Source: Planctomycetes bacterium syqfu (GTDB lineage: Bacteria; Planctomycetota; Phycisphaerae; Phycisphaerales; Phycisphaeraceae). From it: a stretch of DNA of 64,000 nt. The notes beneath the pieces were generated by a model. That model was not told where the DNA came from. It did not search any database and saw nothing but the letters and a program-made list of their open reading frames with translations. The DNA lies in NCBI GenBank assembly GCA_020974905.1, contig CP087563.1, positions 1,302,001 through 1,366,000 on the forward strand. Direction: 5' to 3'. Positions within the stretch are counted from its first letter, which is position 1; each line of letters begins with the position of its first letter. Below are positions 2,696-62,310 of the stretch, in pieces. The position numbers were made by a program, and so were the translations under genes.

Positions 2696-3871
2696 TCACC
2701 CCCCAATTTGATCCAATGCATCAATCAGTTGGTCGAGTTCATCGTCGGTGTTAAATGCACCGGGGCTGATGCGGATGCTGCCTGCGGGGAAGGTTCCGAT
2801 TTGTTTGTGGGTGTAGGGTGCGCAGTGTAAGCCGGGGCGGACTGCGATGTCGAAACTGTCATCGAGAATCGTGCCGACGTCTGAGGGCTCGTAGTCTGCG
2901 ATGTTAAAACTCAGCGTGCCGACGCGTTTGGTTGCATCGTGTGTGCCATAGAGCGTGAAGCGTTCGTCTTTTTTGAACTTGTCGATGATCTTTGCGACCA
3001 TCTGCTGTTCGTGTTTGCAAATGTTCTCAATGCCTTGTTCAAGGACATAATCGACACCTGCTGCTAGCCCCGCCATGCCGATGGTGTTGGGGGTTCCGGC
3101 TTCAAGATAGTAGGGTCAGATGGGTGGTTGGGTTGGTGTGGAGGAATCACCGCCAGTGCCGCCTTCACGCCATGGATTGAAATGATCCAGGTGTGGTCGC
3201 GGGCAGCGATCACCGACATACAGCACGCCCGTCCCGGTGGGACCGAGCAGTGACTTATGCCCGGGTAATGCGAGGATGTCGATGTTCATCGTCTGAATAT
3301 CAATGGGAATCACACCAGCGGTCTGGGCAGCATCAACGAAAAAGAGCAAGTCTCTTTCGCGCACCAACTGCCCCACTGCGGTGATGTCCTGCACGGTGCC
3401 CAGCACATTGGAAGCATGCGTCATGATCACCAACCTGGTGTTGGCTTGGATCGCTGCTTCAATGTCTGCTGGTGCAACGAAACCTTCTTGATCACATTCG
3501 ACTCGGGTCAACTCGATCGCACCACGATCCGCCAAAGACTGTAGCGGGCGACTCACCGAGTTATGCTCCAACACCGTGGTGATGACATGCGGCACAGTGC
3601 CCTCATTGGCTGAGGTCCCGAGTAAACCCTTGATGCCCATGTTCAACGCATCAGTGCCGTTGAGCGTGAAGATGATACGGTTATGCTTGGCCACGTTAAA
3701 CAAACGCGCGAGTTTGAGCCGCAGCGCATCGAGCATCTCTTCAGCGCGCACCGCCATGCGATGTCCAGCGCGGCCGGGGTTGGCAGCATCTTCAGCGATG
3801 AATTTGGCGATGGCGTCGGCGACGCCTGGTGCCTTGGGGAAACTGGTTGCCGCATTGTCGAAATAGATCAT
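2696..3871 (-). pseudogene. Cysteine-desulfurase-like class V aminotransferase interrupted by an in-frame TGA
   Basis: The minus strand encodes a complete PLP-dependent class V aminotransferase of about 391 codons, similar to the cysteine desulfurase family. It begins MIYFDNAATSFPKAPGV, carries the PLP-binding lysine in GHKSLLGPTGTG and the catalytic-type cysteine in RPGLHCAPYTHKQIGT, and ends with FNTDDELDQLIDAL. One TGA at 3116-3118 splits it after STPTQPPI; the same frame then continues PYYLEAGTPNTIGMAGLAAG, the expected next motif. There is no frameshift and both halves are well conserved, so this is a recent nonsense mutation, a sequencing error or readthrough. The UGA is not at the catalytic cysteine, which argues against selenocysteine. 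Confidence 0.85.
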
Positions 3872-3884
3872 TCAAAAACCTTCA

Positions 3885-4370
3885 TTACATCACATGCCCC
3901 AAGCCTGATAGTTTACGCAAGGTCGAAATCTGGCCGGCATGCATGGCCAAATGCGACGTGAGCAGGAAGACCAGAAAATCCCCCTGCTTGGGGAACCGAT
4001 CAACCAGACGATCAATTTTTGTATCCGCCAGCAGAACCGACTCATCCGCCTGTTCGTAGGCTTCGGTCAACGCAGCATAGACTTCGTGAAACTTGGCGAT
4101 GATCTGATCAGGTGTCGGGTAGATCGATGCATCGTCATTGGATTCGGTCCCACGTAAAAACAGTTTGTCCCACGCTTCATCACACAGCGAAGGCTTACCA
4201 ATCGCTTTGAGTCCGCTGTTGGCTGAGCTGGCAATGTGACCGATCTGCCAAGCCAGGTGATTGGGGACACCCGCTGGACGCTTGAACCAGAGATTGTGAT
4301 CCGTGCCATCGATGAGCAATTGAACATAACCCTGGGTGACGCGGGAGGCTTGAATGGTGTTTTGACGCAT
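3885..4370 (-). CDS. DinB-superfamily protein, copy 1
   Basis: The product (161 residues from MRQNTIQASR) belongs to the DinB/YfiT-like putative metalloenzyme fold, a four-helix bundle that usually binds a divalent metal through three histidines. Visible candidates are the histidines of NHLAWQIGHIA and of LTSHLAMHAGQI. I chose the ATG at 4370 over an upstream one because AAGGAG sits eight bases before it and because the neighbouring paralogue starts at the equivalent place (MRSNVIAASR). Many DinB-fold proteins are thiol-dependent transferases, but the substrate here is unknown. It starts 14 bases after the interrupted aminotransferase in the opposite reading order, both on the minus strand. 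Confidence 0.82.
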   Translation of the reverse strand: MRQNTIQASRVTQGYVQLLIDGTDHNLWFKRPAGVPNHLAWQIGHIASSANSGLKAIGKPSLCDEAWDKLFLRGTESNDDASIYPTPDQIIAKFHEVYAALTEAYEQADESVLLADTKIDRLVDRFPKQGDFLVFLLTSHLAMHAGQISTLRKLSGLGHVM

Positions 4371-4558
4371 GAATGAGGCTCCTTGTGATATTGGAATGTT
4401 CATTCCAATATACCACCATCCCACCCGATTATTCCAGTACGAACCACAAAATTCACAAAACGCTCATTTTCCTTCAATCGCAACTCATTGCATTTTTGAC
4501 GTCAGGCATGGAGTTTTAGAACAGTTCAAACATTTATTCTCCATCCAGTTTCTGATTT

Positions 4559-4644
4559 CGTCACTCCCGCGCAGGCGGGAATCCCATGGCATGCAGTAGA
4601 AAATTGCAAATTCCACTGGACTCCCGCCTGCGCGGGAGTGACGG
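4559..4644. repeat. REP-like inverted-repeat element, copy 1
   Basis: Two palindromic arms (CACTCCCGCGCAGGCGGGAA and CTCCCGCCTGCGCGGGAGTG) flank an inner stretch containing ATGGCATGCAG and TTCCACTGGA. The same element recurs at 18382-18475, 25568-25653, 36907-36991 and 61077-61160, with a half copy at 59966-59993. It lies between the two DinB-fold genes. Confidence 0.9.
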
Positions 4645-4696
4645 AGGATGGAGATTAATTGCTTGCATTGCTTATGTCCCGTGATTTTCACGTCAA

Positions 4697-4727
4697 TCTC
4701 CCCGTGGGTTAAAACCCTCGGGCTTTA
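4697..4727. repeat. Short CCCCGGGGTTAAAACCCC-type repeat, diverged copy
   Basis: CTCCCCGTGGGTTAAAACCC followed by TCGGGCTTTAAT is a diverged copy of the element found at 54409-54442 and 55862-55894. It forms a short hairpin through GGGTTAAAACCC. Confidence 0.55.
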
Positions 4728-4760
4728 ATGTGCATCCGTGATCCGATGGAGGAAAATTAA

Positions 4761-5237
4761 TTAACCTTCCGCCAACATTTTCCGGAGCATGGCAATTTGC
4801 CCAAAATGCAGGCCTGCATGAGACGTCAGCAAAAAGGCTGCAAAGTCGCCATTGGTCGGATACCGATCACGCAGACGTTCGAGCACGTTATCCGCAGCAA
4901 GCACATCATCGCTTACTTCACCATAACTGGTGATCAAACGTTCATGGGCCTTGTTCATGGTCTTAAACAGTTCGGTCGTCGTCGGTTGACCGGCATCATC
5001 GTTGTCCGGCGTGGATCCCCTGCCGTAGAGGTCCGCCCATTCCATCGGCACGACTAGTTCCTGGCCAAGTACCTTCAAACCAAAGTTAGTCGTCACCGCG
5101 AGATGCCCAATATGCCAGGCGACATGGTTGACAAACGGTGGAACAGGCTTGAACCATAAGTCCTGCGGGATGTCCACAAGAAACTCATCACCTTCGGTGA
5201 AGATTCGCCGGGATGCTGCTATGACGTTGGATCGCAT
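4761..5237 (-). CDS. DinB-superfamily protein, copy 2
   Basis: A 158-residue paralogue of the protein at 3885-4370. Shared landmarks are the start MRSNVIAASR, DLWFKPVPPFVNHVAWHIGH, the NGDFAAFLLTSHAGLHFGQI helix and the C-terminal MLRKM. The three histidines expected to bind a metal are present in NHVAWHIGH and LTSHAGLHFG. GGAG lies eight bases before the ATG. The two genes are separated by a REP-like element and a short hairpin repeat rather than forming a tight operon. As with copy 1, the family suggests a small thiol- or metal-dependent enzyme, but no substrate can be read from sequence. Confidence 0.83.
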   Translation of the reverse strand: MRSNVIAASRRIFTEGDEFLVDIPQDLWFKPVPPFVNHVAWHIGHLAVTTNFGLKVLGQELVVPMEWADLYGRGSTPDNDDAGQPTTTELFKTMNKAHERLITSYGEVSDDVLAADNVLERLRDRYPTNGDFAAFLLTSHAGLHFGQIAMLRKMLAEG

Positions 5238-5291
5238 GTTGATTCTCCGTGCTTGAGGACTGTCGAGAGAAAAGTTGATCTCTACAGAATC

Positions 5292-6383
5292 TTAAGCCCC
5301 AACGTACTTGGCGTAAATACTCTTTGCGACAGTTGGCTGTTTGGTGCCTTTGACAATCGCACGGCCGTCGGTGAACAAGGTCAACTCATACGCTTCGCCA
5401 TTATCCGTTATGTGTGCCTGGAGCATAAACTTGTTGGCTTTGACCGTGCCATGCGATTCGAGACGTTTGGCGATGGTGTCGAAATTCAGTTTTTCACCGT
5501 CACTGAGTTTTTGCGTCATCTGCACGGCATTGCGGCCACAGAGTGTGGTCGTGCTTGAAGCAAACTTGCCATCAATGAATTCAAAGTTGCGTTTCTTGCA
5601 GCACTGACATTCGCCCACATCATACGCACGGGCAACCTTGAGCTGACGGACATCGTTTTCCCAAATGTCGATCGACAGCAGCTTGTCGCGCACCGCAGCG
5701 AAGTTGCCGGTGAGAACCTTGATGGTTTCGGTCACCTGGAAATTGGAGATGATCGATACAGCAGGACCAAGCACACCAGCCGTATCACAGGTCGGATTCA
5801 TGCCCGGTGGCGGAGCTTGCTCGAAGATGCAGCGCAGACACGGGGTCGCCACACCAGCCTGTTCCCACGGGCTTTCACCATTGTGTGTGTGGGGGAGGAT
5901 GGCATAGGTCATGCCCACGGTACCGACCGCGCCGCCGTAGATGTAGGGAATGCCGAGTTTCACCGCTGCATCGTTGGCAACGAAGCGCGTCTCAAAATTA
6001 TCCACGCCATCGACGATGACATCACAACCTTGAGCAAGTTTTTCAATGTTGGTGTGATTCACATCATCGACAATCGCATCAACCGTGACCTGCGAATTGA
6101 TTTTGGCGATCTTCATCTTCGCAGCTTCAGCTTTGGGGATCGCATTTTCCACGTCGGACTCATCAAAGAGAACCTGACGTTGGAGATTGGTAATCTCGAT
6201 GAAGTCGCGGTCGACGATGACCAAATGCCCAACACCAGCGCGGGCGAGCATGTTGGCAATGACCGTGCCCAGCGCGCCGCATCCCAGGACGAGGACTTTG
6301 CTGGCCAGGAGTTTTTTCTGACCTTCTTCACCAATCCCGGAAAGAAGCATTTGACGGTGATAACGTTCGAGGTTTTGTGTCAT
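5292..6383 (-). CDS. ThiF/MoeB-like E1 adenylyltransferase
   Basis: This 363-residue protein is a complete ThiF/MoeB/HesA family enzyme, which adenylates and then activates the C-terminal glycine of a ubiquitin-like sulfur carrier. It opens with RYHRQMLLSGIGEEGQKKL, then the nucleotide-binding VLGCGALG, the NLQRQVLFDESDV arginine segment, VDGVDNFETRF, a TCDTAGVLGP segment holding a candidate active-site cysteine, and CLRC and CQCC pairs that probably bind zinc. About 95 residues of extra C-terminal domain follow (from NFEFIDGKFA to KYVGA). Its likely partner is the carrier at 7072-7362, in the same cluster under a SAM riboswitch. MoeB or thiamine roles are possible, but the regulatory context favours sulfur amino-acid synthesis. 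Confidence 0.88.
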   Translation of the reverse strand: MTQNLERYHRQMLLSGIGEEGQKKLLASKVLVLGCGALGTVIANMLARAGVGHLVIVDRDFIEITNLQRQVLFDESDVENAIPKAEAAKMKIAKINSQVTVDAIVDDVNHTNIEKLAQGCDVIVDGVDNFETRFVANDAAVKLGIPYIYGGAVGTVGMTYAILPHTHNGESPWEQAGVATPCLRCIFEQAPPPGMNPTCDTAGVLGPAVSIISNFQVTETIKVLTGNFAAVRDKLLSIDIWENDVRQLKVARAYDVGECQCCKKRNFEFIDGKFASSTTTLCGRNAVQMTQKLSDGEKLNFDTIAKRLESHGTVKANKFMLQAHITDNGEAYELTLFTDGRAIVKGTKQPTVAKSIYAKYVGA

Positions 6384-6421
6384 TTTAATTGCAATCGGAT
6401 AAACATGGTTTACAAGGCATT

Positions 6422-6545
6422 TTTACCACAGATAAACACAGATAAACACAGATGACAAGGCACTGCTAAACCGCAAGCGGTTTAAAAAACCAAATTGAAA
6501 TTCTCATCTTTATCTGTGTGTATCTGTGTTCATCTGTGGTTTCCT
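6422..6545. repeat. Inverted ACCACAGATAAACACAG repeat pair
   Basis: TACCACAGATAAACACAG followed by a further ATAAACACAGATGACAAG (6422-6457) is matched in reverse orientation by TATCTGTGTGTATCTGTG and TTCATCTGTGGTTT (to 6545). The pair can fold into a long hairpin around a 45-base centre. It fills the gap between the ThiF-like gene and the NIL-domain gene. Related copies lie at 6868-7052, 14566-14817, 53960-53993 and 62337-62453. Confidence 0.85.
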
Positions 6546-6570
6546 GTCTTGGATACCAAAAAATAATTGA

Positions 6571-6825
6571 TCAGCCTTCGACCAAACTTCCGCCTTCGAC
6601 GGGGTCGACTTTGACGCCGTTGGACTGGAGGAACTTGATGGCTTTGTCGAGTTGCTTTTCCTTGCCGGAGAGTTCGAGGGCCATGATGCCGATGGCTTTG
6701 CCGATTGAGGCCTGGCGGATATCGAAGATCACGTTGGGATACTCCTGTGAGAGTTTCCAGATGACCGGTTCATCCTGGCAGCCACCTTCGAAGGTGAGCC
6801 AGACTTTGCGTGTTGCTTTGGACAT
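6571..6825 (-). CDS. NIL-domain protein
   Basis: An 84-residue protein starting MSKATRKVWLTFEGG, with the compact beta-alpha-beta pattern of the NIL domain (VWLTFEGGCQDEPVIWKLS, then IFDIRQASIGKAIGIMALELSG, then AIKFLQSNGVKVDPVEGG). NIL is the small ligand-binding domain found at the end of MetN methionine transporters and in stand-alone or ferredoxin-fused proteins linked to homocysteine synthesis. AGGAAA precedes the ATG; longer upstream codons lie in a repeat and are not used. It sits between the sulfur carrier and the E1 enzyme, which supports a role in sulfur amino-acid metabolism, perhaps as a sensor or sulfide-relay partner. The role is an inference. Confidence 0.82.
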   Translation of the reverse strand: MSKATRKVWLTFEGGCQDEPVIWKLSQEYPNVIFDIRQASIGKAIGIMALELSGKEKQLDKAIKFLQSNGVKVDPVEGGSLVEG

Positions 6826-6867
6826 GAGGGTTTCCTGTTGATTTTGTTGACAAATGGTTTGAAGAAT

Positions 6868-7052
6868 TTTTACCACAGATGATAAGAAGTGAAGGCAGTT
6901 TCTCACGCCCGCTTCGCTCAAGACGCCAAGGCGCAAAGATAAGAAAAAAATTTAATCATATTCTTTCTGTCTTGCTTCGCGTCTCTGCGTCTTGAGCGAA
7001 GCGGGCGTGAAACATTGTTATTTGCCTTTATCTGTGTTCATCTGTGGTTACT
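6868..7052. repeat. Nested inverted repeat (ACCACAGAT / CGCCCGCTTCGCTCAAG)
   Basis: An outer arm TTACCACAGATGATAAG pairs with TTTATCTGTGTTCATCTGTG at the right end, and an inner arm TCACGCCCGCTTCGCTCAAG with GCCAAGGCGCAAAGA pairs with TCTGCGTCTTGAGCGAAGCG and GGCGTGA. The whole can fold into one long hairpin. A closely similar composite element is at 14566-14817. It fills the space between the NIL gene and the sulfur-carrier gene. Confidence 0.85.
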
Positions 7053-7071
7053 TGCCTTTTAAACCGTGGAT

Positions 7072-7362
7072 TTAGCCACCAGCGATGGCGGGGACGATGG
7101 CCAATTCGTCACCGGCTTTTGCCGCGGTGTCGAGATTGTCCAGAAAGCGGATGTCTTCGTCGTTGACGTAGATGTTGATGAACCGATTGAGTTCACCTTC
7201 GGTCTTGAACAAACGCTTGCCAAGGTCGGGGTATTGGGTGTTGATGGATTCGAGGACAGCCTTGACGGAGTCGCCGGGGATTTCAAGTTGGGACTGGCCA
7301 TCGACCTGGGCGCGGAGCGCGGTGGGGATGGCGACGGGGATGATGGTTGAGGTGGTGGTCAT
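7072..7362 (-). CDS. MoaD/ThiS-like ubiquitin-fold sulfur carrier
   Basis: A 96-residue protein with the beta-grasp pattern of MoaD/ThiS sulfur carriers (IPTALRAQVDGQSQLEIPGD, then VKAVLESINTQYPDLGKRLF, then LNRFINIYVNDEDIRFLDNL) ending GDELAIVPAIAGG. The free C-terminal Gly-Gly is the diagnostic feature: the last glycine is adenylated by a ThiF-like enzyme and turned into a thiocarboxylate that donates sulfur. AGGAG lies eight bases before the start codon. It is next to a threonine-synthase-like gene and in the same cluster as a matching E1. By analogy with CysO in mycobacteria and HcyS in Wolinella, it is likely to supply sulfur for cysteine or homocysteine; the exact product is an inference. 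Confidence 0.88.
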   Translation of the reverse strand: MTTTSTIIPVAIPTALRAQVDGQSQLEIPGDSVKAVLESINTQYPDLGKRLFKTEGELNRFINIYVNDEDIRFLDNLDTAAKAGDELAIVPAIAGG

Positions 7363-7410
7363 TTTTTGACTCCTGTGAGGTAGCGGTTTTTGTGCTTGTT
7401 TTCGTGAGGT

Positions 7411-8661
7411 TTATGCGGTGGCAGCAGCGTTGTTGCCTTGGACGATGACTTCATCAAATTCCTTGATCTTGGCTTTGATGACCGGCGCGGCTTGGAATTG
7501 ATTTTCCATGACTTCGAGAGTTTTTAAGCCGTTGCCGGTGATGCATACGCAGATGGATTCGTCTTTGGGAATCTTGCCGGATTGGATAAGTTTAATGGCG
7601 CAGGCGAGGGTGGTGCCCCCTGCTGGTTCGGTGAAGATGCCCTGGGTGCGAGCGAGCAATTTGATGGCATCGATGATTTCAGGGTCGGTTGCAGAGGCTG
7701 CCCAACCGCCGGAGTTGAGAATGTCTTTGATGACATAGTAACCGTCCGCGGGATTGCCGATGGCGATGGACTTGGCAATCGTCTTGGGCTTTTGGGGGCG
7801 GAAGATTTCTTCGCCTTCTTCGATGGCTGTGGTGATCGGATTACAACCTTGAGCCTGGGCGCCATGGATGACGGGGCTATTGTCATCGACGAGGCCGAGC
7901 CGGATGAACTCCTTGTAGGCTTTGTTGACCTTGGGCAGAATCGTGCCACCGGCAACGGGGAGGACGGTGTGCTGGGGCAGCTTCCAACCGAGTTGTTCAG
8001 CGATTTCAAAGCCGTGGGTCTTGGCGCCTTCGGTGTAAAACGGGCGGAGGTTGACGTTGACGATGGCCCAGTTGTACTTGTCGGCAATCTGCGAGCAGAG
8101 ACGATTGACATCGTCATAGTTGCCCGCGATGCGAACGACCTTGGGACCGAAGACGGACATACCCACCATCTTGCCAGCTTCCAAATCATGGGGCACCATC
8201 ACGAAGGTATGCAGACCGGCAGCGGCGGCGTGGGCGGCAACGGAGTGGGCAAGGTTACCTGTGGAAGCACAGCCAACGGTGTCAAAACCGAACTCAATGG
8301 CTTTGGTGATGGCGACACTCACCACGCGATCCTTGTAGCTGAAGGACGGGTAGTTGGCCGAGTCGTCCTTGATGTACAACTCTTTGACGCCAAGTTCCGC
8401 AGCAAGTTTGTCGGCTTTAACCAGCGGGGTCCAGCCGGAGTGTAATCCTGCTTTGGGTTCTCCCTCGATGGGCAACAGGTCCTTGTATCGCCAGAGAGAC
8501 AGCGGTCCAGCTTCGATGGACTGGCGGGTGACATTGCCTTGCATGGCTTTGTAGTCGTAGGCGACTTCGACGGGTGAGAAGTCGATGTCACAGACGGTGC
8601 GGGGCTCGATGGGGTATTCCTGCCCCGACTCGCGGCTTTTGAGAGACTTGACGTAGGACAT
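7411..8661 (-). CDS. thrC: Threonine synthase-like PLP enzyme
   Basis: The 416-residue product (from MSYVKSLKSRES) is a fold-type II PLP enzyme of the threonine synthase family, which normally converts O-phosphohomoserine to threonine. It shows the PLP lysine in SYPSFSYKDRVV-like context (YPSFSYKDRV), the cofactor phosphate loop CASTGNLAHSV, and GGTILPKVNKAYKEF. A longer start at 8679 (MEMEPA) is also possible. The N-terminal region, which in many ThrC proteins carries a CxxC zinc ribbon, has serines in place of the first cysteines (KSRESGQEYPIEP). The gene is first in a cluster behind a SAM-I riboswitch, next to a sulfur carrier, so homocysteine formation from O-phosphohomoserine is a credible alternative activity. 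Confidence 0.87.
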   Translation of the reverse strand: MSYVKSLKSRESGQEYPIEPRTVCDIDFSPVEVAYDYKAMQGNVTRQSIEAGPLSLWRYKDLLPIEGEPKAGLHSGWTPLVKADKLAAELGVKELYIKDDSANYPSFSYKDRVVSVAITKAIEFGFDTVGCASTGNLAHSVAAHAAAAGLHTFVMVPHDLEAGKMVGMSVFGPKVVRIAGNYDDVNRLCSQIADKYNWAIVNVNLRPFYTEGAKTHGFEIAEQLGWKLPQHTVLPVAGGTILPKVNKAYKEFIRLGLVDDNSPVIHGAQAQGCNPITTAIEEGEEIFRPQKPKTIAKSIAIGNPADGYYVIKDILNSGGWAASATDPEIIDAIKLLARTQGIFTEPAGGTTLACAIKLIQSGKIPKDESICVCITGNGLKTLEVMENQFQAAPVIKAKIKEFDEVIVQGNNAAATA

Positions 8662-8802
8662 GGCGGGTTCCATTTCCATGAGGTTGGGGCCCCCCGGAAG
8701 TTTTCACTGGCGGGGATGAGGTGTGGCCGGTTCTCGTTCAAGGCATCAGCGTTGCGTCGCAACGCAGCTATTGTCGCATGGGTTTACATGCTGATACACG
8801 TT

Positions 8803-59993: not shown

Positions 59994-60032
59994 AATTGAA
60001 CGGTCGCATTGAGAATATGTCTTTGAACCGAT

Positions 60033-60953
60033 CTAGTTCTCGCCATCAGCCAGCACGACATATTTCCCGCCGTGCTGCTCGATCACCAATGCCAACCCTT
60101 GCGGATCGTGGCCTCGCCAGACGGCATCGAATCTTGTGTCCGAATTCAGAACCTTGTTAATCGCCTGTACATGGCTCTCCGTCAACGCCTGGGCGCTGAG
60201 CAACACCATGCGCGACAAATGGTCATGTCCCAATCGACTGATGGCATCGGATGGCAGTAACTGGCCTGCCGGTTCGATCGCATCCAACACTTTTTCATCA
60301 AGCGGCAATGTGGATTCAATCCGTGGCATGTCGATTTGTCTGCCATTGAAAAATACAAACGTCACCGGCGTCACCGACTCCTGCAAAACCTCGTGAAGCT
60401 TTCGTATCTCAGCTTTGATGTCGTCAAGCCAATCGCCCGTTGAGGCCGTCGCGTCAATGAGGATGACCGTCGGTGAATCAAGCTTGATGGAAAAGAACTC
60501 CGGGGTGTGAGAGGTTAAATCCGTGCCGGTGGTTGCTGTGGCGTTGTCGGTGCGTTGGACATTTTCAGCAGGTGGTGGCAGATGTTTTTGCTGATCGACA
60601 AGCCATGCTGCAAAGCCGACGATGATGCCCATGAGCATGGTGACGATGAAGATTCGCCAAAGGCGCATGCCGGTCTGCTTTGGTGGAAGATCGCGTTGGT
60701 AAGCCATCACCGACCGCCCCGCCATGGCACGTTGTTCCGAGAGCACCGTGGGGTGAATGTCCGCAGCGGTCATGTTCTGCCTCGGATCATCATGCCGCGT
60801 CCCGTCTTCATCGGTGACCGGTTTAGCCATGTCTTCATTGACACTCACCAGCGCACCACAACTGCTGCAGCGACAGATGCTGCCTGCAAAGGCATGGTCC
60901 AGAACAAACCGCACACCACATGCCGGGCAGTCCAGTTCAAGATGTTCGCTCAT
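60033..60953 (-). CDS. Zinc-ribbon membrane protein with VWA-like domain
   Basis: A 306-residue protein from MSEHLELD. The N-terminus has two CxxC pairs (LDCPACGVRF and CRCSSCGALV), a zinc-ribbon or rubredoxin-like knuckle in the cytosol. One hydrophobic helix (IFIVTMLMGIIVGFAAWLVD) at about residues 103-122 follows. The C-terminal part looks like a von Willebrand type A domain: SPTVILIDATASTGDWLDDI with a degenerate DxTxS metal site, then TPVTFVFFNGRQIDMPRIES and LSRMVLLSAQALTESHVQAI. Such proteins are widespread in Planctomycetota with no assigned function. It is between the AraC gene and a REP-like element, on the opposite strand to the former. Confidence 0.78.
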   Translation of the reverse strand: MSEHLELDCPACGVRFVLDHAFAGSICRCSSCGALVSVNEDMAKPVTDEDGTRHDDPRQNMTAADIHPTVLSEQRAMAGRSVMAYQRDLPPKQTGMRLWRIFIVTMLMGIIVGFAAWLVDQQKHLPPPAENVQRTDNATATTGTDLTSHTPEFFSIKLDSPTVILIDATASTGDWLDDIKAEIRKLHEVLQESVTPVTFVFFNGRQIDMPRIESTLPLDEKVLDAIEPAGQLLPSDAISRLGHDHLSRMVLLSAQALTESHVQAINKVLNSDTRFDAVWRGHDPQGLALVIEQHGGKYVVLADGEN

Positions 60954-61076
60954 CAAATTCATCGGTGAAGCTTATGTTAGCTCATTTCCAGTAACCAATC
61001 CCACAATGCAATGAAAGAAACTCAGGACTAGCTACTAAGAATTCTTGAGAATAGCAATCTCCATACATATCATTCG

Positions 61077-61160
61077 GTCATTCCCGCGCAGGCGGGAATC
61101 CAGTAGCATTCTGATGACGCTTGCAGGTTCCACAGGACTCCCGCCTGCGCGGGAGTGACG
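61077..61160. repeat. REP-like inverted-repeat element, copy 5
   Basis: GGTCATTCCCGCGCAGGCGG, GAATCCAGTAGCATTC, TGACGCTTGCAGGTTCCACA, GGACTCCCGCCTGCGC and GGGAGTGACG. It is full length. It occupies part of the 364-base gap between the zinc-ribbon gene and sppA. Confidence 0.88.
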
Positions 61161-61251
61161 ATAGCCGTCGGACTTTCTCGGTGATATTCATAACACAACA
61201 AACACTGTGATATGTCAGACCGTGTTGCAGTGTTTTTCTGCCTTTCCCCAA

Positions 61252-61281
61252 GTCCCAAGTCGCTAGTGGCTAGTCCCTGTA
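61252..61281. repeat. TAGTCGCTAGTCCCTG repeat, partial copy 2
   Basis: CAAGTCCCAAGTCGCTAGTG followed by GCTAGTCCCTG repeats the right half of the element at 22486-22558. It lies close to the 3' end of sppA. Confidence 0.55.
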
Positions 61282-61317
61282 ATTCACAGGAGTATCGCGT
61301 TCAACCTCGCAGACACA

Positions 61318-62310
61318 CTAATGACTTTCCGAAAACCCAGGCCAGAGATAATAGAACCCATCAGCCGGCTGTGCCAGCAGCCCCCCCATGTCCATGCTGG
61401 CAATGTTGATCTGAGTTTGGGGCACATTGTTCGGTGTCGAGGCATACGGTGAACCGACATATTGCAGCGGTCGGTGATACCGCACCAGTTCCCCTTGCGT
61501 GATCCCCGCCAACTTCTTGGCTAGTGCATAGGCCGATTGCAGGTCCCCCAACTCATCCGCCAGGCCGACCTGCACCGCCATCGCGCCGGTGACGATACGC
61601 CCGTCGGTGAGCCATGGGATGTCCTTGGGATCGAGATTGGTTCTGGCTTTCTTGACGGTGGCAACGAACCGAGCGTAAAAGTCATCGACCATCTGCTGAA
61701 GGATCTGGTATTGCTCGTCGGTGAGATTTTCAAACGGAGAACCGGCAGCCTTGTTCGGTCCCGAAGTAATCGCACGCGGCTTGATCCCCCAACGTTCCAA
61801 CGCAGGCTTGATCGAGACCGTCTGCATGATCACACCAATGCTGGCCGTGATTGCGGTGGGATACGTCACCACGCGGTCGGCAGAACAGGCGATGTAATAC
61901 GCACCACTTGCAGCAACATCCATAAACAGCGCGATCACCGGCTTACCGGTATCCGCCTTGAACTGCATGATCTGACGGTAAATCGCATCACTGGCGGTCA
62001 CCGTGCCGCCCGGCGAGTTGATGCGGAGAATCACAGCTTTGACCTTGGGATCGTGACGAGCTTCCTGGAGTTTTTCATACATCAGACTCACAGGGTTTTC
62101 CCCCTCACGCAGCAAACCGGGCTTGGCATAGTTGGTGATCGTGCCGGAGATGTCGATGATGGCAACGCGACCTTGCGACCAACCCGCATCCTTCTGGACC
62201 ACTTTGGTTTTAAGCCGTTGATCCGTGGCCGAACCCACCACAAACGTCATGGGGCCACAGGCTGTAAGTAGGCTGCTGACAATCAAAAGTATCAAGAGAC
62301 GCAAGTGCAT
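61318..62310 (-). CDS. sppA: Signal peptide peptidase SppA-like lipoprotein
   Basis: A 330-residue S49-family serine protease that degrades cleaved signal peptides in the envelope. It has a lipoprotein signal peptide (LLILLIVSSLLTACGPMTF), the AVILRINSPGGTVTASDAIY segment, the nucleophile serine in MDVAASGAYYIACSADRVVT, ASIGVIMQTV and the probable general-base lysine in SGPNKAAGSPFENLTDEQ. This is the single-domain form, about half the E. coli length. GGAG lies upstream of the ATG at 62310; the longer frame to 62343 is not favoured. The lipobox (LTAC) indicates attachment to a membrane, facing the periplasm. Confidence 0.92.
   Translation of the reverse strand: MHLRLLILLIVSSLLTACGPMTFVVGSATDQRLKTKVVQKDAGWSQGRVAIIDISGTITNYAKPGLLREGENPVSLMYEKLQEARHDPKVKAVILRINSPGGTVTASDAIYRQIMQFKADTGKPVIALFMDVAASGAYYIACSADRVVTYPTAITASIGVIMQTVSIKPALERWGIKPRAITSGPNKAAGSPFENLTDEQYQILQQMVDDFYARFVATVKKARTNLDPKDIPWLTDGRIVTGAMAVQVGLADELGDLQSAYALAKKLAGITQGELVRYHRPLQYVGSPYASTPNNVPQTQINIASMDMGGLLAQPADGFYYLWPGFSESH

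Follow-up and report, generated by a model that had tools for sequence, protein, structure and literature searches.

An in-frame TGA in a cysteine desulfurase-family gene of Planctomycetes bacterium syqfu: probably a very recent nonsense allele, possibly a one-base error

The cysteine desulfurase-family gene at the end of a sulfur-carrier cluster in Planctomycetes bacterium syqfu is broken by one in-frame TGA, which is best explained, with a probability that we put at about 0.7, as a very recent nonsense allele: a single G-to-A change would have turned TGG (Trp252) into TGA and left a null allele of a sulfur donor that is backed up elsewhere in the genome. A wrong base in the assembly consensus is an appreciable, clearly less probable alternative; the weighting of the two is a matter of judgement, and the clean neighbourhood favours a real base. 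Overall, the TGA looks like an ordinary, very recent loss of function or one wrong base, and not like a special reading of the code. Positions are those of the window, the whole stretch of 64,000 nucleotides that was analysed; syqfu is labelled G000 where a label is needed, and its congeners are G001, G002 and G003.

Results

The interrupted desulfurase gene

The initial annotation had reported a single TGA at 3116-3118 in a desulfurase-like gene, with both sides intact and in the same frame and with the PLP lysine and the catalytic cysteine preserved, and all of this was confirmed in the assembly: the TGA is codon 252 of 391, there is no length difference from the 95%-identical copy in G002, dN/dS is low on both sides, and the two residues are, by alignment, K206 and C350. 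The parts of the gene are the following.

2696..3871, minus strand: cysteine desulfurase-family gene (TIGR01977), 391 codons, broken at codon 252 (frame reading and profile matches)
3116..3118, minus strand: in-frame TGA, codon 252; TGG in the congeners G002 and G003 (frame reading, congener comparison)
3119..3871, minus strand: part before the stop, 251 codons; PLP (large) domain with K206 at 3254-3256 (ORF list, alignment, structure model)
2699..3115, minus strand: part behind the stop, 139 codons; end of the linker with EAGTPN (residues 257-262, codons 3103-3086) and small domain with the catalytic C350 (2822-2824); length unchanged, low dN/dS (congener comparison, alignment, structure model)
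3074..3076, minus strand: ATG, codon 266; the sole in-frame ATG, GTG or TTG between codons 253 and 270 (frame reading)

In the list of open reading frames, the gene appears on the minus strand as a frame of 251 aa (3871-3116) and a same-frame ATG-initiated frame of 126 aa (3076-2696), and the whole frame, 3871-2696, also terminates in TGA, the same codon type as codon 252. The locus is the top match of a whole-genome search with PF00266, covering positions 1-371 of 371 with '1 TGA' inside, and, with X in place of the stop, its TIGR01977 score is 420.9 bits (cut-off 377) over positions 1-376 of 376. K206 and C350 are invariant among 23 aligned sequences, but are encoded on opposite sides of the TGA; both also align with solved desulfurases, in which we take C350 to correspond to the active-site cysteine. 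By score and conserved residues, the gene is thus assigned to the TIGR01977 (am_tr_V_EF2568) family, related to SufS/CsdA, with which it shares an over-cut-off match along its whole length, the PLP lysine and the catalytic cysteine, and from which it differs in being split at codon 252. The computed mass is 42.1 kDa with Trp at position 252, and 26.8 kDa for the truncated product.

The ancestral codon and the age of the change

Relatives were searched in four genomes of the genus and 51 of the family. A desulfurase without the stop is present in G002 (95% protein identity) and in G003 (75%), both of which have TGG (Trp) at codon 252; in G001, which is 95% complete, the genus search gave only a 44% paralogue. 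The alignment had 35 rows, four of them second copies of the same locus, leaving 31 distinct sequences, namely 30 orthologues and the TGA gene. Site 252 of the 30 orthologues holds Tyr in 15, Phe in 12 and Trp in three, never a stop and never Cys, and no internal stop was reported in any row of the 51-genome family search other than that of syqfu. The congeners have TGG and the orthologues have Trp, Phe or Tyr and no stop, so TGG was the ancestral codon, from which one G-to-A change gave TGA. Plasmid copies were also considered for comparison; their best matches were below 60% identity and of no use for the question of the stop.

As judged from these alignments, the gene has the hallmark of an incipient pseudogene, a disabling change confined to one lineage while sister species have the gene intact. 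It shares with other bacterial nonsense alleles and incipient pseudogenes the single base change, the otherwise intact frame, the intact sister-species copies and the small amount of decay behind the stop, and nothing was found that sets it apart from them. Our literature search found no report that names this gene break.

The change appears to be very young. Measured against G002, the closest relative, the stretch ahead of the stop has a dN of 0.0324 and a dS of 0.431, and the part behind it a dN of 0.0188 and a dS of 0.300 (dN/dS 0.06), with no length difference. Only 4-5 replacements behind the stop fell on the syqfu branch, compared with 49-78 expected, on site counts from syqfu alone, had the whole branch been neutral. 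If the TGA inactivates the gene, constraint would on this basis have been lost no earlier than in the final 6-17% of the syqfu branch after the split, a rough 95% bound that depends on the dS used and rests on G003 as outgroup.

Across the whole gene, 10 replacements (the TGA not counted) are derived in syqfu, compared with two in G002, as counted on the 35-row alignment including the four second copies. The corresponding sum for the ThiF, ThrC, second DinB and ThiS genes of the cluster is 10:13, which differs from 10:2 with a post hoc Fisher p of 0.034. This excess is a weak sign of relaxed constraint, because the whole-gene dN/dS of 0.073 is ordinary, ranking 84th of 134 shared genes (median 0.060), and it may mean little, because five of the ten derived residues are also present in at least three other orthologues. 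The DinB gene that adjoins the desulfurase (3885-4424) was left out of the sum; it has itself seven derived replacements in syqfu and one in G002.

Assembly quality and the possibility of a wrong base

If the TGA were a one-base consensus error, the cell would have TGG and a working desulfurase, and several observations are in keeping with this: the difference is a single base, its surroundings are constrained, and the ancestral codon is one change away. The assembly, however, looks clean, being a single contig of 7,376,598 bases that is 95.78% complete with 0 contamination. We compared five contigs of G002 (about 196 kb) with 464 kb of syqfu, in which 134 gene-like G002 frames (49,393 aa) were matched, these frames running from stop to stop and so starting upstream of the gene. 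A stop appears in syqfu in 20 of the 134, and the desulfurase TGA is the only one deep inside a gene, as judged by frame position and not start codon by start codon; the others lie in the first 26 codons of the stop-to-stop frames, at codon 219 in a frame of 220 codons, or next to a syqfu insertion at codon 77 of a 389-codon frame. In the reverse comparison, G002 has a stop in 14 of 135 frames, and in two of these there are stops at codons 40-85. The G002 frames contain 706 TGG codons, of which 694 are TGG in syqfu and two are TGA, one being codon 252 here and the other codon 2 of a stop-to-stop frame.

No convincing frameshift was found in the 134 shared genes. Three frameshift-like signals were seen, two of which lie at one place (about 12,800) and come from a length difference upstream of an ATG, and the third (about 60,000-61,500) from about 340 extra syqfu bases with palindromes between two aligned blocks. 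An error-ridden assembly is therefore not supported by the 134 shared genes.

The base itself has a context that could bear on either reading. On the plus strand, it is the inner C of a GGCC, and, in the 464-kb sample, a C in this context in G002 is T in syqfu in 63 of 693 cases, against 40 of 672 in the reverse direction (p = 0.031, post hoc and uncorrected). This bias may reflect C methylation in syqfu, whose genome has six PF00145 matches, that is, C5-methylase-family genes, and it gives a weak post hoc signal that the change may have arisen at a methylated C. A miscall at a methylated C would fit the bias; real deamination of a methylated C, however, gives the same C-to-T bias. With an assembly that looks clean and shared genes free of convincing frameshifts and of further deep stops, a consensus error seems to us a good deal less likely than a real base, although it is the only alternative that carries real weight.

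The palindromes in the third region belong to a repeat found at several places in the window. The REP-like palindrome CCCGCCTGCGCGGG / CCCGCGCAGGCGGG occurs at 4566, 4623, 25575, 25632, 36970, 59973, 61083 and 61140, and is paired at a distance of about 57 bases at 4566, 25575 and 61083. The stretch of about 340 syqfu bases at about 60980-61320, with two such palindromes, is absent from the G002 contig C217.

Predicted consequence of the truncation

A structure model of the G002 protein (mean pLDDT 87.5, pTM 0.90) places residue 252 in a poorly predicted linker between the last strand of the large domain (215-219) and the helix that opens the small domain (263-279). Behind the stop lie E257, G259, T260, N262, R345 and C350, all of which are invariant in the 23 sequences. 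Under the nonsense reading, a single very recent G-to-A change in the Trp252 codon of the cluster desulfurase would end translation after 251 residues, giving a product of 26.8 kDa that keeps the PLP domain and K206. This product should be inactive, and the allele null, because EAGTPN, R345 and the catalytic C350 are lost, so that no sulfur transfer would be expected, and because, were translation to resume at ATG266, residues 253-265 would be missing from both products. The gene would then be a fresh null allele, either an incipient pseudogene or a variant that is still segregating, and the ThiS-type carrier would presumably be supplied with sulfur by other desulfurases. The cluster is well kept elsewhere, which speaks against a null allele, since a desulfurase that is so well kept usually matters.

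Other readings of the TGA

Three explanations had been put forward in the initial annotation, a recent nonsense change, a sequencing error and readthrough; the first two still stand, and the third is disfavoured by the tRNA-Trp, by RF2 and by TGA usage. Near-cognate tRNA-Trp inserts Trp at UGA. If codon 252 were read in this way at a useful level, some full-length enzyme would be made from the native gene, the inserted residue would be the ancestral one, and the part behind the stop is indeed still constrained. The cited part of PMC13092985 describes UGA readthrough by tRNA-Trp variants in E. coli and associates it with a 4-bp anticodon stem, A9C and G24A. None of these features is present in the only tRNA-Trp found in syqfu, which has the anticodon CCA, a full 5-bp anticodon stem (GUUGA/UCAAC), A9 and G24 (our numbering), and a DNA search gave no second copy, the next matches being parts of other tRNAs at 82% identity or less and short pieces. 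RF2 is present (432.6 bits), and TGA is a common stop, ending 64 of 131 checked genes (TAA 55, TAG 12). No tRNA with a UCA anticodon was seen among 49 Rfam tRNA matches, a list that rests on the scoring of 150 out of 272 candidates; 47 of these places were identified by ARAGORN, and the remaining two (L243 and L245) have UGA and CAU anticodon loops, as read by eye from the Rfam alignment. The Rfam list did not include two tRNAs that ARAGORN saw (Pro-TGG and a Glu-TTC). The second of the two unnamed places, L245 (G000:C1:238072-238142), is a weak tRNA-like match of 31.7 bits with an apparent CAU anticodon loop, for which ARAGORN makes no call.

TGA does not recur at Trp positions of conserved genes, there being no second deep TGG-to-TGA change among the 706 codons, and a change of the genetic code or a suppressor tRNA is not supported. 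The gene resembles cases of UGA-to-Trp recoding or readthrough in having TGA where relatives have Trp, but differs from them in its canonical tRNA-Trp, in the presence of RF2 and of TGA as a common stop, and in being confined to one codon. Moreover, the youth of the change accounts by itself for the clean 3' part, and useful readthrough is very unlikely. A programmed form of it, in which the ordinary tRNA-Trp would restore Trp252 at a low rate, so that translation would limit how much sulfur reaches the ThiS-type carrier, as a single-gene, tRNA-independent use of UGA as Trp, is slightly more improbable still.

We give even less credence to a two-piece enzyme, with residues 1-251 as a PLP-domain protein and a second, small-domain protein begun anew at ATG266. 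In the structure model, the stop does sit in the interdomain linker, and ATG266 is TTG in G002 and ATT in G003; residues 253-265, however, with EAGTPN and the invariant E257, G259, T260 and N262, would be in neither piece, and for this reason the proposal was rejected. In addition, no purine-rich ribosome-binding stretch was seen by eye directly before ATG266, and the family search showed no split homologue and no other row with a stop.

Selenocysteine at the TGA is the least credible reading of all, and was rejected, the machinery being missing and the site aromatic. Some planctomycetes do have genes for selenocysteine insertion, according to the cited part of PMC4807772, and one of nine matches to the tRNA-Sec model is nominally above the cut-off (47.9 vs 47 bits). 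ARAGORN, however, identifies this match as tRNA-Ser, seven others are further Ser, Leu, Cys or Lys tRNAs, and the ninth (L016) is no tRNA by ARAGORN and has no Rfam match at gathering score; the model also gives matches in 14 of 14 control genomes, and the selA model in only four of 14. Profile searches of the genome gave no match for selA, and for selB a best match of 181.7 bits, under the cut-off of 242.25, which is probably EF-Tu because it adjoins tRNA-Trp and falls below the cut-off. The selenocysteine system, with its selC, that had been raised in the initial annotation was thus not found by these tRNA-Sec, selA and selB searches, and neither Cys nor Sec occurs at the site in the 30 orthologues.

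The sulfur-carrier cluster

The genes upstream of the desulfurase, at 3885-8679, are listed below.

3885..4424, minus strand: DinB-superfamily gene, next upstream of the desulfurase (ORF as listed; the true start may be further in)
4761..5237, minus strand: second DinB-superfamily gene of the cluster
5292..6383, minus strand: ThiF/MoeB-type adenylyltransferase
6571..6936, minus strand: NIL-domain protein (ORF as listed)
7072..7362, minus strand: ThiS/SAMP-type sulfur carrier
7411..8679, minus strand: threonine synthase-family PLP enzyme

The order ThrC, ThiS, NIL, ThiF, DinB gene or genes and desulfurase, with the desulfurase last, is kept across the family. The nearness to a sulfur-carrier cluster, on which the initial annotation had laid weight, was borne out: of the 19 stretches that were compared, 17 have ThiF upstream of the desulfurase and with the same orientation (the exceptions, L074 and L120, being without ThiF within the stretch), and 12 of the 19 have the full set of ThrC, ThiS, NIL, ThiF and desulfurase, usually with at least one DinB gene; three further stretches (G003, G025 and G020) begin inside the cluster. 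In G001 (95% complete), neither the cluster ThiF nor the desulfurase was found at the thresholds used, which suggests that the enzyme can be dispensed with. Because this context is conserved, we infer that the desulfurase is the natural sulfur donor of the ThiS-type carrier. A literature search on the terms of the cluster found hardly anything. The cluster of sulfur-carrier thiocarboxylate type known as CysO/CysM in Mycobacterium tuberculosis, as described in the cited part of PMC12910592, likewise has, next to its ThiS-type carrier, an adenylyltransferase and a beta-family PLP enzyme; the syqfu cluster differs from it in its threonine synthase-family partner, its NIL and DinB genes and its dedicated desulfurase.

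The search for another desulfurase that had been proposed in the initial annotation gave four further full desulfurase-type genes in syqfu, two weaker PF00266 matches (L006 and L007) being left out. These are of the IscS type (589.4 bits, cut-off 548), of the DndA type (504.4 bits, cut-off 480), NifS-like (412.9 bits, below the cut-off of 530.75) and a second TIGR01977 protein (385 bits, cut-off 377). Because of these other desulfurases, loss of the cluster enzyme need not be severe.

A further trace of the gene lies downstream of it. At 1856-2030, between the minus-strand frames 1216-1812 and 2083-2724, lie two gene remnants joined together: one (1861-1932) matches the 3' end of the desulfurase at 69%, along residues 110-138 of the C part, and the other (1919-2029) matches the 250-aa frame at 447-1199 at 76%. 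G002 carries the same fused remnants (L073, 7327-7498), which look like the product of an old tandem duplication.

Implications

For the interrupted gene, we infer that the cell really carries this base, that the truncated protein does not work and that other desulfurases take over. As it stands, the case means little, being either a further recent nonsense allele or a single wrong base; for annotators, it means that the gene is not to be read as a selenoprotein. A recent nonsense allele at this place would, however, be a small natural test of whether a ThiS-type carrier cluster, which normally has its own desulfurase, can run on another. If, on the other hand, the base were real and a full-length protein were made, the gene would offer a clear example of useful UGA readthrough limited to one gene.
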